Shown here piece by piece: positions 15 to 5,912 of a DNA stretch of 33,214 nucleotides; within the stretch, counting starts at the first letter, position 1, and every line of letters begins with the position of its first letter. Location of the stretch: contig CANCHK010000020.1 of assembly GCA_947377865.1 (NCBI GenBank), positions 1 to 33,214 on the forward strand, in the 5' to 3' direction. The notes beneath the pieces were generated by a model. The model worked only from the letters and a program-made list of their open reading frames with translations. It ran no database searches and was not told the DNA's origin. The position numbers and the translations under genes were made by a program. Source of the stretch: Opitutia bacterium (lineage in GTDB: Bacteria; Verrucomicrobiota; Verrucomicrobiia; Opitutales; UBA953).

Positions 15-317
15 ATGTCGACCCCCCAACCCCATCCCGGCGCCCCCGCCCGCACCCGCGAGCAGGTGGCCGACCTGCATTTCATGGACGCGCGGTATAA
101 GCTGCTCGACCTGGCCGCCTTCCTCGACCGCCTCGACCGCGCCGCCGGGGGCGACGACCACCGCGTCCGTGGCCTCCGCGCCGCTCTCCCGCTCCTCCTG
201 GAAAAAGACGAAGGCCGCGTCGCCCGCATCCTGACCCTTTGGAGCGACCCCTCCGTCGCCCCGATCGAAAAGGCCGACACCAAGGCCGCCTCGGGCGTCT
301 GGCCTGGTCTCAAGTAA
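15..317 (+). CDS. Small helical protein at the head of the ebo cluster
   Basis: A 100-residue protein with no signal peptide or membrane segment, predicted by eye to be mostly alpha-helical. Readable blocks are an N-terminal helix starting at LHFMDARYKLLDLAAF (about residues 21-36), a second helix around the RGLRAALPLLLEKDEG stretch, and a Gly/Trp C-terminus ending VWPGLK. I do not recognise a named domain. It is much shorter than the EboA proteins I know of, so I do not call it EboA. The ATG at 15 is preceded by CCCC, as at many starts in this window, but the frame is open to the window edge and the real start could lie upstream. It ends 9 nt before the TatD-like gene, so it is probably co-transcribed and may be a partner or chaperone of that enzyme. 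That role is inference. Confidence 0.7.
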   Translation: MSTPQPHPGAPARTREQVADLHFMDARYKLLDLAAFLDRLDRAAGGDDHRVRGLRAALPLLLEKDEGRVARILTLWSDPSVAPIEKADTKAASGVWPGLK

Positions 318-326
318 GCCACGACC

Positions 327-1142
327 ATGCGCTATATCGAACCGCACGGCCACATGGTGAGCCGCACCACCGACGACTATCAGGCCATGGTCCTCGCCGG
401 CTGCGCCGCGATTTGCGAGCCCGCCTTCTGGGCCGGCTTCGACCGCAAGTCCGCCGACGGTTTCTACGACTACTTCTGTCAGCTCACCCAGCATGAGCCC
501 AAGCGCGCCGCCAAGTACGGCCTGCCGCACTACTCCTGGTTGTGCATCAACCCGAAGGAATCCGAAGACATGGCGCTCGCCGCCGACGTCCTCGCGCTCA
601 TCCCAGAATTCCTGAAGGCCCCGACGGTGCTCGGCATCGGCGAGATCGGCCTGAATAAGAACACGCGCAACGAGATGAAGGTGCTTGAGCAGCACATCGC
701 CCTCGCGGTGCAGTACGACCAGATGATCCTCGTGCATACGCCCCACCTCGAGGACAAGCGCAAGGGCACGCGCCTGATCATGGATTGCCTCAAGGCCAAC
801 GGCGTCGTGAAGCCCGAGCGCGTGATCATCGACCACGTCGAGGAACATACCATCCACGAAGTCCTCGACCAAGGCTTCTGGGCCGGCATCACGCTCTATC
901 CCGAATCGAAGGCCACGCCGGTGCGCGCCATCGACATGATCGAATCCGTCTCCGCCCAGCGCGTCTGGCTCAACAGCGCGTGCGATTGGGGCCACAGCGA
1001 TCCGCTGTCCGTGCCCAAGGCCGCGCAGGAAATGCGTCGCCGCGGCCACTCTGCCGCCGCCATCGACCGACTCGTCTACGGCAACCCGGTGAAGTTCCTC
1101 TCGCAGTCGCCGCGTTTCAAGGACCCCGCCGCCCAGGCCTGA
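327..1142 (+). CDS. eboB: TatD-like metal-dependent hydrolase, EboB type
   Basis: A 271-residue TIM-barrel amidohydrolase of the TatD superfamily, the family assigned to EboB. Expected metal-binding positions are visible: the HxH of EPHGHM near the N-terminus, GEIGLN after the middle strands (Glu), HTPH, DHVEEHT and a late Asp in SACDWG. Length is normal for the family. The substrate is unknown; TatD proteins include DNases, but EboB-type members sit in metabolite clusters and need not act on DNA. The ATG is preceded by ACGACC with no Shine-Dalgarno. The next gene starts 5 nt downstream, so the two are probably translated from one message. Confidence is high for the fold and good for the ebo assignment, which rests on the neighbours. 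Confidence 0.88.
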   Translation: MRYIEPHGHMVSRTTDDYQAMVLAGCAAICEPAFWAGFDRKSADGFYDYFCQLTQHEPKRAAKYGLPHYSWLCINPKESEDMALAADVLALIPEFLKAPTVLGIGEIGLNKNTRNEMKVLEQHIALAVQYDQMILVHTPHLEDKRKGTRLIMDCLKANGVVKPERVIIDHVEEHTIHEVLDQGFWAGITLYPESKATPVRAIDMIESVSAQRVWLNSACDWGHSDPLSVPKAAQEMRRRGHSAAAIDRLVYGNPVKFLSQSPRFKDPAAQA

Positions 1143-1147
1143 TCCGC

Positions 1148-2320
1148 GTGAAGCTCACGTCCGGACTTTCCCTCGCCTACTGCACCAACGTCCATCGCGG
1201 CGAAGGGTGGGTCGAGACGTTCGCCGGCCTGCGCGACCACGCGCTCCGCGTGCGCGACCGCGTCTGCCCCGGCAAGATGTACGTCCTCGGTCTACGCCTC
1301 GGCGACCTCGCAGCGAAGGAACTCGCTGTCCCCGCCACGCTCACGGCTTTCCGCGCTTGGCTCGATAAGGAGAATTGCGTCGTCGCCGGCATCAACGGCT
1401 TCCCGTTCGGCCCGTTTCATGGCCAGGCCGTAAAGGATAACGTCTTCGCGCCAGACTGGTGCGAAGCCCCGCGGCTCGAATACACCAACCGCCTCTTCGA
1501 CCTCCTCGCCGCGTTCGGTCCGCCCGATAAGGTCGGCACCGTCAGCACGCTGCCAGGTTCGTTCAAAGGCTTCGGCCGCAACGCCGACGAGCTCAAGGTC
1601 ATGCGTCGCAATCTGCTCGCGTGCGCCGAGCACCTCGCCCGCCTGCGCGACCGCACCGGTACGCATCTCCGCCTTGCGCTCGAGCCTGAGCCCCTCGGCC
1701 ACGCCGAGAATACCCCCGAAGCGCTGCGTCTGTTCGAACAGCTCCGCGCCGAAGAGCCCGCTAAGGGCCTCGTCGACGCGCACCTCGGCATCGCTTACGA
1801 CACCTGTCACTTCGCGCTGCAATACGAAGAAGCCCATGAGGCCATCGCGCGGCTCAACGCCGGCGGCGCGCCCGTGCTCAAGTTCCACCTCAGCTCCGCG
1901 TTGAAGCTCAAGCCCACCGAGGTCGCCCTCGCGCGCCTCGCGAAGATGCACGAGCCCACGTACCTGCACCAGACCATGGGTCGGGCCAAGGATGGCTCCA
2001 TTGTGCGCTTCAAGGACATCCCGTTCGCCATGGCCGCGATCGATCAGCTCCGCGCACTCGAGGAGCTCCGCGTTCACTTCCACGTGCCGGTCAACGCTGA
2101 CCGCCTCTCCGACGAACTCTCCACGACGAACGATCACCTCAAGGCTGCGCTCGACGTCATCGCCAAGGCGCCCGGCGCCTGCCGCGAGCTCGAGATCGAG
2201 ACATACACCTGGGAAGTCCTGCCACCGGAAGTCCGCGCGTCTGATGTCGCCGATATGATTGCCGAAGAATATCGCTGGACGCTCGCCGAGCTCGCGCGGC
2301 GCGGCGTGAAGCCCCTCTGA
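1148..2320 (+). CDS. eboE: Xylose-isomerase-like TIM-barrel protein, EboE type
   Basis: A 390-residue protein of the xylose isomerase-like TIM-barrel superfamily, matching EboE ('metabolite traffic protein EboE'). Recognisable parts are the N-terminal strand LSLAYCTNVHRGEGW, a segment with NGFPFGPFHG, the carboxylate strand LALEPEPLGH (about residues 177-186), GIAYDTCHFALQYEE, and KFHLSSALKL. The Glu, Asp and His residues sit where this superfamily binds a divalent metal. The GTG at 1148 is chosen because it follows the eboB stop by 5 nt and gives the N-terminal beta strand expected for the family; an open frame continues upstream inside eboB but would add a non-homologous extension. Substrate and reaction are unknown. 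It is separated by 1 nt from eboC. Confidence 0.87.
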   Translation: MKLTSGLSLAYCTNVHRGEGWVETFAGLRDHALRVRDRVCPGKMYVLGLRLGDLAAKELAVPATLTAFRAWLDKENCVVAGINGFPFGPFHGQAVKDNVFAPDWCEAPRLEYTNRLFDLLAAFGPPDKVGTVSTLPGSFKGFGRNADELKVMRRNLLACAEHLARLRDRTGTHLRLALEPEPLGHAENTPEALRLFEQLRAEEPAKGLVDAHLGIAYDTCHFALQYEEAHEAIARLNAGGAPVLKFHLSSALKLKPTEVALARLAKMHEPTYLHQTMGRAKDGSIVRFKDIPFAMAAIDQLRALEELRVHFHVPVNADRLSDELSTTNDHLKAALDVIAKAPGACRELEIETYTWEVLPPEVRASDVADMIAEEYRWTLAELARRGVKPL

Positions 2321-2321
2321 G

Positions 2322-3320
2322 ATGGTCGCGAAGCTCCGCGCCTGGCTAATCCTTACCCGCGGCTCGAACTTGCCGACGGTCTGGAGCAACCTCGTCGCCG
2401 GCTGGCTGCTCGGCTACGTCTACACCGATCGTTTCCCGTGGGCCATGGGCCTGCTCCTGTCGCTCTTCGGTCTGCTCCTCGGCGTCTCGCTCATCTACGT
2501 CGGCGGCATGATCCTCAACGACGCGTTCGACGCGCGCTGGGACACCGAACGCCGCTCCACGCGCCCGATACCGGCCGGGGTCGTCTCGGCCCGGTCCGCC
2601 TTCGTGGTTGGCGGCCTCGCGCTGTTCTTCGGAGCGTGGTTCACCATCGCTGCCTCGCTGGGCGGCCATCGCGGCATCACCTTCGTGCTCGTCGCGCTGC
2701 TGGTCGGCGGCGTGCTCGTCTATGATCGCTGGCACAAGGGCGTCAGCTGGGCCCCGGCCGTGATGGGGCTATGCCGCGCGCTCCTGCCGCTCATCGGGTT
2801 CTTCGCCGTCGGCGGACTCATCGACGGACCGCATTTTCGCGGCGGGAACCTCGTCGCGCTGCTTGCGCACCCGTGCGTGCTCTGGTTGCTGACGTTCTCA
2901 ATCACGCTCGTCGCGCGTCATGAGGCCGGGCCGGGAACGCCGCCGAAGTGGGCCGAGTGGCTGCTTTACCTCGTGCCCGTCCCGCTCCTGCTGGTCCTGT
3001 TCCTGCCGGACGTGAACGCCAACCCTAAGGCCGCGCTCATCGGCTGCCTGCTGTTCTGGGCTTGGATCTATCGCTCGAATCGTCGTCACGCGCTTCCCGC
3101 CGGCGTCGGCCGCCGCGTCGCCGACCGTCTCGCTGCGTTCCCGTTGGTCGACTTCGCCGCCGCTGGTCTCTTCTTTTACAACGTCGGCTACATGCGTTCC
3201 GCGACCGAAGGCTCGATCGAGGTCGGCTGGGCCGTCTTCGCGGCGGGGCTCGTCTGGATCATGCCCTTCGGCGCGTTCGGACTGACCCTGCTGCTGCGCC
3301 GTTGGATCCCGACCACCTGA
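2322..3320 (+). CDS. eboC: UbiA-like prenyltransferase EboC
   Basis: A 332-residue integral membrane protein with about eight to nine hydrophobic segments, of the UbiA superfamily. The first Asp-rich motif is clear: N66-D67-x-x-D70-x-x-x-D74 within NDAFDARWD, which in the family binds the Mg-diphosphate of a prenyl donor. A second motif, YDRWHKG (about 134-140), is the form I associate with EboC rather than the DxxxD of ubiquinone-type enzymes. It would sit in the cytoplasmic membrane and either prenylate a small molecule or support its handling; the acceptor is unknown. ATG follows the eboE TGA by one base, so translation is probably coupled. It ends 94 nt before eboD, the only sizeable gap in the cluster. 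Confidence 0.9.
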   Translation: MVAKLRAWLILTRGSNLPTVWSNLVAGWLLGYVYTDRFPWAMGLLLSLFGLLLGVSLIYVGGMILNDAFDARWDTERRSTRPIPAGVVSARSAFVVGGLALFFGAWFTIAASLGGHRGITFVLVALLVGGVLVYDRWHKGVSWAPAVMGLCRALLPLIGFFAVGGLIDGPHFRGGNLVALLAHPCVLWLLTFSITLVARHEAGPGTPPKWAEWLLYLVPVPLLLVLFLPDVNANPKAALIGCLLFWAWIYRSNRRHALPAGVGRRVADRLAAFPLVDFAAAGLFFYNVGYMRSATEGSIEVGWAVFAAGLVWIMPFGAFGLTLLLRRWIPTT

Positions 3321-3367
3321 ACGGGCTGGTTTAGGGCCTTTCCGACGGCTGAAGTTGGGAACTTGGC

Positions 3368-3396
3368 TTGTCCTTAGGCGTCTATCCTCTTCTGAT
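3368..3396 (+). promoter_or_regulatory. Possible internal promoter before eboD
   Basis: The 94-nt gap between eboC and eboD holds TTGTCC (3368-3373) and TCTGAT (3391-3396) separated by 17 nt, a fair match in spacing and a partial match in sequence to a sigma-70 promoter. A start site near 3403 would leave a leader of about 12 nt before the eboD ATG. This may be chance; no experimental or comparative support is available. Confidence 0.22.
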
Positions 3397-3414
3397 AAAC
3401 CCTCCCCCAGGGCT

Positions 3415-4566
3415 ATGGACGACTCCCTTGACCTCGAATTCGCGGTAACCTACCGCCACCGCATCTTCTTCACCGAAGGTGCGTTCGCTTCGGGCAACCG
3501 TGTCCTCGCAGACCTCTTTGCCGGCGCCAAGGTCATCCCAATTGTCGATGCGGGCCTAGCGAACTCTCGTCCGGGTTTCGCCGCCGAGGTCGCCGCCTAC
3601 GGTAAGGCCATGGGTGTACACTTCACCCGCCAGCCTCTCGTGCTCACCGGCGGTGAGGCCGCCAAGAAAGACTCCGCCGTCGTCAAGGCCGCCCTCGCCG
3701 CGATCGAAGCCGACAAGATCTGCCGCCACTCCTACGTCCTCGCCATCGGCGGCGGCGCCTTTCTCGACGCTGTCGGCTTCGCCGCCGCCACCGCCCACCG
3801 CGGTGTGCGTCTCGTGCGTATGCCCACCACGACCCTCGGCCAGGGCGATGCCGGCGTCGGCGTGAAGAACGGCATCAACACCTTTGGTAAGAAGAATTTC
3901 ACCGGCGCCTTCGCCGTGCCCGCCGCCGTGGTCAACGACCTCGCACTGCTCGCCTCGCTCGACGCCCGTGGCCTGCGTGACGGACTCGTCGAAGCCGTGA
4001 AGGTCTCGCTGCTCAAGGACCCGGTCTTCTTCGCGAACCTCGAGAAGGAGTCTGCGCTGCTTGCCGCCGGGAACATCCCTGCCATCGGCCGCGCTGTCCG
4101 CCGCTCCGCCGAACTGCACGCCAAGCATATCGCCGGTAATGGCGACCCCTTCGAACTCGGCAGCGCCCGTCCGCTCGACCTCGGGCATTGGGCCGCACAT
4201 AAGCTCGAATCGATGACGAACCATCGCCTGACGCACGGCGAGGCCGTGGCCGTCGGCCTAGCGCTCGACCTGATCTGCGCCCGCGAGCTCGGCCTCTTCG
4301 GCAAGGCAGAGACCGAGCGCTCGCTCAACCTGCTCGTCGCCCTCGGCTTCCGGATCTACGCGCCCGAGATGCATCTCGACGGCGGCGCCCCGATGCTCGC
4401 CGGCCTCGAAGAATTCCGCGAACACCTCGGCGGCCAGCTCACGCTCGTCCTGCCGACCGCCATCGGCAAGTCCACGCAGGTCCACGAGATGGCTTCCGCC
4501 GTCGTCCGTAAGGCCGCCGACGAACTGCGGGCGCGGGATCAGCAGCCATGCGTCGCGCGGTCCTGA
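3415..4566 (+). CDS. eboD: Dehydroquinate-synthase-like sugar phosphate cyclase, EboD type
   Basis: A 383-residue NAD- and metal-dependent cyclase of the AroB superfamily. The dinucleotide-binding region AIGGGAFLDAVGF (about 110-122) is present, and the three metal ligands can be placed at Glu193 (GLVEAVKVS), His258 (LDLGHWAAH) and His274 (LTHGEAVAV). The active-site loop reads GQGDAGVGVKNGIN (142-155) rather than the DSSVGGKTGVN form usual in AroB, which places it with the specialised cyclases (EboD, valiolone-type). It probably acts on a heptose- or ketose-phosphate, not DAHP, but the substrate cannot be read from sequence. ATG at 3415 is preceded by GGGCT; a frame opening at 3355 would add 20 non-homologous residues. 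It overlaps eboF by 19 nt. Confidence 0.88.
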   Translation: MDDSLDLEFAVTYRHRIFFTEGAFASGNRVLADLFAGAKVIPIVDAGLANSRPGFAAEVAAYGKAMGVHFTRQPLVLTGGEAAKKDSAVVKAALAAIEADKICRHSYVLAIGGGAFLDAVGFAAATAHRGVRLVRMPTTTLGQGDAGVGVKNGINTFGKKNFTGAFAVPAAVVNDLALLASLDARGLRDGLVEAVKVSLLKDPVFFANLEKESALLAAGNIPAIGRAVRRSAELHAKHIAGNGDPFELGSARPLDLGHWAAHKLESMTNHRLTHGEAVAVGLALDLICARELGLFGKAETERSLNLLVALGFRIYAPEMHLDGGAPMLAGLEEFREHLGGQLTLVLPTAIGKSTQVHEMASAVVRKAADELRARDQQPCVARS

Positions 4567-5912
4567 ACGTTGTCGGGCTTTCCGCCCGGGACCTGAGTTC
4601 CGGCGTCATGCCGCGTCTCGCCGCGCGCGCCGCCCAGGGCAGCGTCGCGAAGGTCCGCCCCGCGTTCCCGGCCGTCACCTGCACCGCGCAGTCAGATTAC
4701 CTCACGGGCAAGCAGCCGTGCGTGCATGGCATTGTCGGTAACGGGTGGTATGACCGCACGCTCAGCGAGGTGCAGTTCTGGAAGCAGTCGAACCGCGTCG
4801 TGCTCGCCCCTAAGGTCTGGGACGAACTGCACGCCAAGAATCCTAAGCTCAAGGTCGCGAACCTTTTCTGGTGGTACAACATGGGCACCGCGGCCGATAT
4901 CTCCGTCACGCCGCGTCCGGTCTACAAGGCCGACGGCGGCAAGATTTTCGACATCGCGAGCTACCCGCAGCGTTACAAGGAACTGCTCAAGCGCGACCTC
5001 GGCGATTTTCCGTTCCATTCGTTCTGGGGTCCGCGCGCCGGCCTGCCGTCTTCGCAGTGGATTGCCGACAGCGCCCGCTGGATTGAAGAGCAGGAGCAGC
5101 CCGACCTCAGCCTGGTCTACCTGCCACACCTCGATTACGACCTCCAGCGCTTCGGCCCGGCCGATCCACGTTGTGATGGCGCGCGACGTGACGTGGACAA
5201 TCTCGTCGGCGACCTCGCCGAATTCCTCGAATCCCGCGGCGTCGAAGTCCTCATCGTCTCCGAATACGCTATCACCGCCGTTGATCGTGCCGTCCCGCTG
5301 AACAAGGTCCTCCGCGCGCACGACTGGCTCGAGCTCAAGCCCGAGGATGGTAGCCTCACGCTCGATACCTTTAACTCCAAGGCCTTCGCCGTCGTCGACC
5401 ACCAGGTCGCCCATGTCGTTGTCCTTGATCCTTCGATCCGCGAAGAAGTCCGCAAGGTCCTGCTCGCCACGCCCGGCGTCGCCCAGGTGCTCGACGCCGC
5501 CGGCCAGGCTGCCGCCGGCATCCAGCACGTGCGCAGCGGCGACTTCGTGGTCATCGCCGACGGACACAGCTGGTTCTCGTATTACTGGTGGGAAGAAGGA
5601 CAGGGTGAGCCCGACTTCGCGCGCTGCGTGGATATCCATCGCAAGCCAGGGTACGACCCCGTCGAACTGTTCATCGACCCCCAGATCCGTTTCCCGATGC
5701 TCTCGGTCGCCTGGTTCCTGCTGAAGAAGAAGCTCGGCTTCAAGGCGCTCATGAAAGTCATTTCGCAAGACGCCTCGCTCGTGAAGGGCTCGCACGGTCG
5801 CATCCCGGAAGACCCGCTCGACTGGCCGGTGCTCATCGCGCCGTCGTCGGCCGCCTTGCCTACGCAGATCGCCTCGACGGATGTCTACGGCCAGATCGCG
5901 AAGGGCTTCTGA
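4548..5912 (+). CDS. eboF: Nucleotide pyrophosphatase/alkaline phosphatase-fold protein EboF
   Basis: A 454-residue protein with the type I phosphodiesterase/nucleotide pyrophosphatase fold, as in EboF. The nucleophile loop PAVTCTAQSDYLTG (41-54) keeps a Thr at the usual place (Thr44). The C-terminal part carries DIHRKPGYDPVELF, KKKLGF and VKGSHGRIPEDP, hallmarks of this subfamily. Several canonical zinc ligands appear changed: EPDxxGH is represented by PHLDYDLQR, SDHG by SEYAI, and the first-strand Asp is missing in VLNVVGL. I believe the first two changes are typical of EboF relatives, so the protein may have lost or altered phosphodiesterase activity. There is no signal peptide. ATG at 4548 lies inside the end of eboD, preceded by CAGCC. 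Confidence 0.87.
   Translation: MRRAVLNVVGLSARDLSSGVMPRLAARAAQGSVAKVRPAFPAVTCTAQSDYLTGKQPCVHGIVGNGWYDRTLSEVQFWKQSNRVVLAPKVWDELHAKNPKLKVANLFWWYNMGTAADISVTPRPVYKADGGKIFDIASYPQRYKELLKRDLGDFPFHSFWGPRAGLPSSQWIADSARWIEEQEQPDLSLVYLPHLDYDLQRFGPADPRCDGARRDVDNLVGDLAEFLESRGVEVLIVSEYAITAVDRAVPLNKVLRAHDWLELKPEDGSLTLDTFNSKAFAVVDHQVAHVVVLDPSIREEVRKVLLATPGVAQVLDAAGQAAAGIQHVRSGDFVVIADGHSWFSYYWWEEGQGEPDFARCVDIHRKPGYDPVELFIDPQIRFPMLSVAWFLLKKKLGFKALMKVISQDASLVKGSHGRIPEDPLDWPVLIAPSSAALPTQIASTDVYGQIAKGF

Follow-up and report, generated by a model that had tools for sequence, protein, structure and literature searches.

Does a group of ebo genes that has no recognizable EboA and departs from the ABCDEF gene order represent a rearranged and incomplete cluster, or a complete system of another type? 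This question is raised by positions 15-5912 of the DNA analyzed here (the window), a stretch of 33,214 nucleotides from an Opitutia bacterium (contig CANCHK010000020.1, here C20), whose genome assembly comprises 2.32 Mb in 128 contigs and is 75.7% complete. An earlier note, made from the letters of the window, had read the region as an ebo metabolite cluster with a rearranged order and no recognizable EboA. Our analysis revealed that the cluster is almost certainly a complete eboG-type ebo operon of a verrucomicrobial metagenome-assembled genome of the Opitutae lineage, conserved in its genus. The operon adds a member from Verrucomicrobiota to the eboG variant, which had already been published, so that the lead of a missing gene and a rearranged order was a false one. 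To this reading we assign a probability of about 0.85.

Six genes located on the same strand, in the order G-B-E-C-D-F, span the region. The first, eboG (15..317, +), is a complete open reading frame (ORF) of 100 amino acids encoding a predicted three-helix protein. It is followed by eboB (327..1142, +), encoding a TatD/amidohydrolase-type metallohydrolase (PF01026, 3e-10); eboE (about 1139..2320, +, with the model match at 1172-2281), encoding a TIM barrel of the xylose-isomerase/ketose-3-epimerase fold (NF035939); eboC (2322..3320, +), encoding a membrane prenyltransferase of the UbiA superfamily (PF01040, 2e-14); eboD (3355..4566, +), encoding a sugar phosphate cyclase (PF01761, 8e-31; PF24621, 6e-26); and eboF (4548..5912, +), encoding a protein of the type I phosphodiesterase/nucleotide-pyrophosphatase fold (PF01663, 1e-53). 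The intergenic gaps measure 9 bases before eboB, 1 before eboC, and 34 before eboD, and the other two joints overlap slightly. EboE matched NF035939 at 400 bits, with a cut-off of 250, and Pfam AP_endonuc_2 at 3e-8, and the same-strand unit that holds it also contains EboB, EboD, and EboF, each above the Pfam gathering score. The coordinates and the Pfam/NCBIfam models thus bear out what had been read by eye, namely a tight unit of TatD-like, TIM-barrel, UbiA, cyclase-like, and phosphodiesterase-fold genes, arranged B-E-C-D-F after the first gene and forming an ebo cluster. The verrucomicrobial host proposed at that stage agrees with the near-identical EboG loci that we found in bacteria labeled Opitutae or Verrucomicrobia(ota).

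The gene described as not EboA-like is the first one, which proved to be complete and which, judged by position and taxon, is EboG. A variant of the ebo cluster consistently without eboA and carrying the short gene eboG was reported in 2016 by Yurchenko et al., whose account, in the passages on this variant, names Deinococcus, Truepera, Herpetosiphon, Thermithiobacillus, and an acidobacterium as carriers and refers to many more species without data shown (PMC5133447). The window EboG was 40% and 38% identical to the short protein encoded before eboB on two Deinococcus plasmids, and an hhalign comparison of verrucomicrobial and other scanned EboG rows with the Deinococcus/Gemmatirosa rows returned a probability of 99.8%. 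The EboG alignment exhibited 16 invariant columns over 13 rows, and the predicted model (pLDDT 80.8, pTM 0.60) was small and helical. Pfam contained no domain for the gene, the predicted fold retrieved nothing from the PDB (best E 2.5), and a sequence profile search produced nothing meaningful (best E 0.038). By scanning named genomes with an EboG profile, we detected at least 339 relatives and kept the best 80 of them; a same-strand eboB follows eboG at a distance of at most 3 kb in 76 of these 80 loci and of at most 100 bases in 64. One of the four loci without a downstream eboB ends 122 bases past eboG. A second kind of EboG-like match, shorter and more diverged, was also observed in G023, G189, and the genomes of family f20, and two genomes carry both kinds.

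The gene order was mapped in 18 of the 41 genomes of the genus with an EboE match (the window's own included; shorter loci were left out), and G-B-E-C-D-F was found in all 18. The same order occurred in four loci from two further families (L069, L074, L075, and L079), of which L069 (3.6 kb from B to E) and L074 have longer gaps. Since this order is shared in the lineage, it does not reflect a local rearrangement. Close relatives therefore do have a usual order, as the earlier note had considered, except that it begins with G and not with A. The plasmids of Deinococcus sp. AB2017081 and QL22 carry the same six genes, including EboG and no annotated EboA, and share with the window the G-B-E-C run with EboG directly before eboB. 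They read D-G-B-E-C-F, a single short hypothetical gene separating eboD from eboB; the difference from the window lies only in the place of eboD, which precedes eboG on the plasmids and stands between eboC and eboF in the window. A truly rearranged cluster without EboA, peculiar to this genome and headed by an unrelated gene, would agree with the lack of an EboA model match and with the departure from ABCDEF. This idea is refuted by the order shared among congeners, by the relatives of EboG, and by the linkage of that conserved family to eboB; the variant had already been published (in the passages of PMC5133447 cited above) and exists in yet another order in Deinococcus, and we give the idea practically no credence.

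The absence of a recognizable EboA stands as an observation, in that the EboA model NF035938 detected none, and it is not unusual, an eboA-less variant being on record. The model had no match in the window's own genome, in a search in which no control genome was positive, and none in the 99%-complete congener G102 within a search of 240 genomes of the phylum; the latter search was shown to work by its matches in four of the 240, all belonging to one family. It had also been suggested that eboA might lie upstream of position 1. Contig C115, whose last 142 bases are identical to positions 1-142 of the window, carries upstream of eboG a cytochrome c gene (L004 2934-3398, +), an AraC-type regulator, and a major facilitator superfamily (MFS) transporter, all named by eye from translations, and no eboA was seen there in this by-eye reading, to which no models were applied. 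In each of the congeners L162, L166, and L158, a single contig aligned with C115 in one piece of about 3.6 kb, at 80-87% identity, over the region that precedes eboG; other congeners aligned in pieces. The window cluster therefore shows neither the EboA nor the ABCDEF order that define the eboA type, and agrees with the eboG type in having no EboA.

In Azospirillum, Aureibacter, Streptomyces, and the four EboA genomes of the phylum, EboA occupies the slot directly before eboB. Because EboG and EboA share this slot, we infer that the two may be alternative partners of EboB. The common position directly upstream of eboB, along with the small size and predicted helical character of both proteins (for EboA, as described in a passage of PMC6282210; for EboG, from the model), could also be taken to mean that EboG arose from EboA by strong divergence or truncation and did not replace it as an unrelated protein. 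When tested by hhalign, however, EboG (107 rows) against EboA (7 rows only) yielded 0.3%, a level at which four unrelated controls also fell (0.1-0.6%), whereas the positive control reached the 99.8% given above. The 2016 authors likewise described their HHalign comparison of EboG and EboA as negative (PMC5133447, in part), and we consider a common descent of the two proteins unsupported and improbable.

The EboB sequences separate the two types. The window EboB was 57-60% identical to the EboB of Deinococcus and Gemmatirosa (57% for Deinococcus), and at most 44.3% identical to the other 37 of the 40 plasmid records listed (of 51). Its residues H7, H9, E106, H137, H170, and D220, which we take to be candidate metal ligands, were kept, and these columns were conserved in 109-110 of 110 rows (here and for EboC, EboD, and EboF below, counts refer to rows above a set score threshold). 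In a tree of 40 chosen EboB rows, the window was placed on the eboG side of a branch supported at 100/100. This side comprised 27 G rows, including the window, and one row (L095) without EboG in its locus, although its genome, G237, carries EboG at another place; the opposite side comprised seven EboA rows and five rows with neither gene in the stretch read. A split of the EboB tree by the two types is likewise described in the 2016 study, where the possibility that the eboG variant makes another product was raised and left open (PMC5133447, in the passages concerned).

The ABCDEF-type operon of Bacteroidota, Cyanobacteria, and eustigmatophyte plastids shares with the window the B, C, D, E, and F families and a small protein encoded directly before eboB, but differs in having EboA instead of EboG, in its order, and in an EboB located across the 100/100 branch. 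The ebo genes of Nostoc punctiforme are homologous to those of the window; unlike them, they are of the A type, with eboD outside the cluster proper as described in part of PMC6282210. Scytonemin genes were not recognized by eye among the listed ORFs of the window, no model search having been made.

Within the sampled Verrucomicrobiota, the eboG variant is wide, EboE being detected in 92 of 240 genomes and EboG in 43 of 240; 42 of these 43 were also EboE-positive (Fisher p 6e-20, uncorrected for kinship). EboE occurred in 41 of the 55 genomes of the window's genus, and in 19 of 22 among the more complete ones. A search of the literature library used here retrieved no paper on ebo in Verrucomicrobia, and the main text of the 2016 paper contains no word beginning with Verrucomicrob- (PMC5133447). 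A third arrangement, B-C-F-D-E, was observed in L088, L092, L093, and L113, from four other families; their EboB falls with the EboA rows across the 100/100 branch. Neither EboA nor EboG was found beside eboB in these four loci, and reading by eye found no obvious candidate for another small same-strand gene upstream of it. In genomes of genus g27 (e.g., G021, G033, G113), the operon is dispersed, eboE and eboG both being present but separated by over 1 Mb of a single contig.

We also examined the conserved features of the enzymes encoded by the operon. The predicted fold of EboE matched ketose 3-epimerases; these matches concern the fold, a search of the PDB by sequence having given no significant hit (best E 0.3). 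In EboC, the motif NDxxDxxxD was located at N66-D74, with N66, D70, and D74 in 68 of 68 rows and D67 in 67. The conserved columns revealed no second Asp-rich UbiA motif around residues 197-202, a region in which A198 and E201 were each present in 66 of 68 rows. In the G-type clusters of Deinococcus and the A-type cluster of Azospirillum, the same gene is annotated only as a UbiA family prenyltransferase, whereas the A-type cluster of Aureibacter has it under the name EboC. The cut-off of the EboC model NF035940 is thus narrower than the 2016 definition, which does not include that cut-off.

EboD bears Asp275 at the position at which the three aligned dehydroquinate synthases have Asn; Asp is also found in the sedoheptulose-7-phosphate cyclase ValA (4p53). 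D275, E213, H278, and H294 were each present in 83 of 83 EboD-type rows. EboF, compared with 2gsn, keeps the position of the Thr44 nucleophile and Asp196, and replaces further ligands of what we take, from the Xanthomonas enzyme, to be the two-metal site: Asp is replaced by Val9, His by Gln200, and Asp-His by Glu239-Tyr240. T44, D196, Q200, and Y240 were each found in 56 of 56 rows, and position 239 keeps Asp in 13 of the 56. His416 aligned to the last His of 2gsn only through a sub-threshold stretch. EboF thus lacks most ligands of the two-metal site that characterizes type I phosphodiesterases/nucleotide pyrophosphatases.

These features, with Asp275 of EboD as in ValA and the fold match of EboE to ketose 3-epimerases, are consistent with a mechanism that we put forward tentatively, at somewhat less than even odds. 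EboD would form a cyclitol by ring closure of a C7 sugar phosphate, the substrate probably being sedoheptulose 7-phosphate; EboE, metal-dependent and ketose-epimerase-like, and the metallohydrolase EboB with its small helical partner EboG would tailor the ring or an adduct; EboC would attach a prenyl chain to the ring in the membrane; and EboF would act on a phosphate-bearing intermediate. A prenylating role of EboC agrees with a homolog that farnesylates quinoline substrates in vitro (passages of PMC9235831). The resulting prenylated cyclitol lipid may help to carry a small molecule through the inner membrane, a role that ebo genes have for the scytonemin monomer in Nostoc, where ebo mutants hold the monomer in the cytoplasm (as stated in parts of PMC6282210). 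The identities of the genes, their completeness, order, and conservation, the linkage of EboG with EboB, and the conserved catalytic positions are observed; from these we infer the substrates, the order of the steps, the product, the EboG-EboB complex, and the export.

A different role for the same enzymes is conceivable. The operon might make an aromatic or quinone-like prenylated small molecule, either a secondary metabolite or a redox lipid and not a transport lipid. EboD and EboE/EboB would in that case convert a sugar phosphate into a ring, dehydrated or aromatic, for EboC to prenylate. Passages of PMC9235831 describe EboC homologs that farnesylate 8-hydroxyquinoline-2-carboxylic acid and quinaldic acid in vitro, the xylose-isomerase-like fold of EboE is also found in the dehydratase AsbF (3dx5) and in IolI (1i60), and transposon mutants in the edb cluster of Pseudomonas fluorescens NZ17 became edible to Caenorhabditis elegans, which led to the conjecture of a repellent (recounted in part of PMC6282210). 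However, all Nostoc ebo mutants covered by that account stall at the same scytonemin precursor, gene-specific intermediates not being detected in them (PMC6282210), phenols and catechols were not prenylated by the EboC homolog in the experiments described in the same passages of PMC9235831, and no tailoring genes were recognized by eye, without a model search, among the ORFs listed beside the operon. We regard such a product as possible, though rather unlikely. A role in primary metabolism, in which EboD would be the organism's 3-dehydroquinate synthase and the remaining genes would serve sugar-phosphate salvage, would follow from the database name of one matching model, cited below. EboD nevertheless reached only 193.7 bits with the aroB model TIGR01357, under its cut-off of 305, and has Asp in place of the active-site Asn in all EboD-type rows, so that it lacks both marks of an AroB; it is linked with EboE, EboC, and EboG, and two 98%-complete genomes of the same family (G149, G175) are without eboE. 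Synthase names for EboD are called unfounded in a passage of PMC5133447, and we consider this role very improbable.

Several observations weigh against our reading of a complete eboG-type operon that makes a prenylated cyclitol. The equation of the first gene with the EboG of 2016 rests on taxon, position, and its being the sole short gene inside the Deinococcus clusters, and the QL22 plasmid carries two further short genes just before eboD. EboC reached 103 bits with NF035940, under the curated cut-off of 250, so that the search with family models supported EboE and not EboC, although Pfam detects the UbiA fold in it; the acceptors reported for the EboC homolog are aromatic and not cyclitols (PMC9235831, as above). 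EboD matches the NCBIfam model PRK06203, named 3-dehydroquinate synthase, at 476 bits, over its cut-off of 333, and the altered metal site of EboF, as seen in the alignment, argues against a simple phosphodiesterase role. Additionally, 10 of the 43 EboG genomes have weak, shorter matches, four of which contain a stop, and the 92 EboE genomes divide into 42 with EboG, 4 with EboA, and 46 with neither by these searches. A mutual exclusion of the two small proteins within the phylum comes down to EboG being present in none of the four EboA genomes, which belong to a single family (p about 0.08), and was set aside as too weak to serve as an argument.

Some ebo clusters differ in their cyclase. On the Streptomyces plasmid L175 (NZ_CP108294.1 27238-40047), together with EboA, and on the Gemmatirosa kalamazoonensis plasmid L171 (NZ_CP007130.1 71053-85853), together with EboG, an inositol-3-phosphate synthase (PF07994/PF01658) stands in the place of EboD, next to a prenyltransferase of the UbiA type and another TIM-barrel protein. 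EboD was not found within the stretch read at these two loci. Such clusters share EboB, EboE, EboF, and the prenyltransferase with the window, but have the synthase and the extra TIM-barrel protein instead of EboD, and eboE is divergent in Gemmatirosa. By comparing plasmid records by eye (40 of 51 EboB records against 60 of 79 synthase records), we found the synthase within 5 kb of EboB in 29 of the 40 listed, many of them near-identical Streptomyces and two of them haloarchaea. The replacement of EboD by this synthase suggests that a cyclitol-forming enzyme is kept. The synthase was detected in two of the 372 genomes searched, neither in the window's genus, and had no match in the window's own genome (G000); given this rarity in the lineage, EboD is taken as the cyclase here. 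The word inositol is absent from the main text of the 2016 paper (PMC5133447), and the synthase term occurred in none of the four papers that a combined literature search on ebo clusters singled out.

A broader hypothesis can be framed on this basis, which we consider unlikely to hold in full: the ebo product would be a prenylated cyclitol whose ring is supplied either by EboD, from a C7 sugar phosphate, or by an unrelated inositol-3-phosphate synthase (Streptomyces, Gemmatirosa, haloarchaea), EboG and EboA would be unrelated, interchangeable partners of EboB, and EboF would be a one-metal or non-hydrolytic enzyme. With EboG linked to eboB, and EboD replaced by the synthase in some clusters, the question of the ebo product becomes concretely testable. 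If two alternative cyclases do lead to a prenylated cyclitol, a comparison of the two cluster types would expose the chemistry common to all ebo systems. Beside the ebo genes of the Streptomyces plasmid, a protein of the ScyD/ScyE family is annotated (L175 880-2079), which recalls the link to scytonemin.

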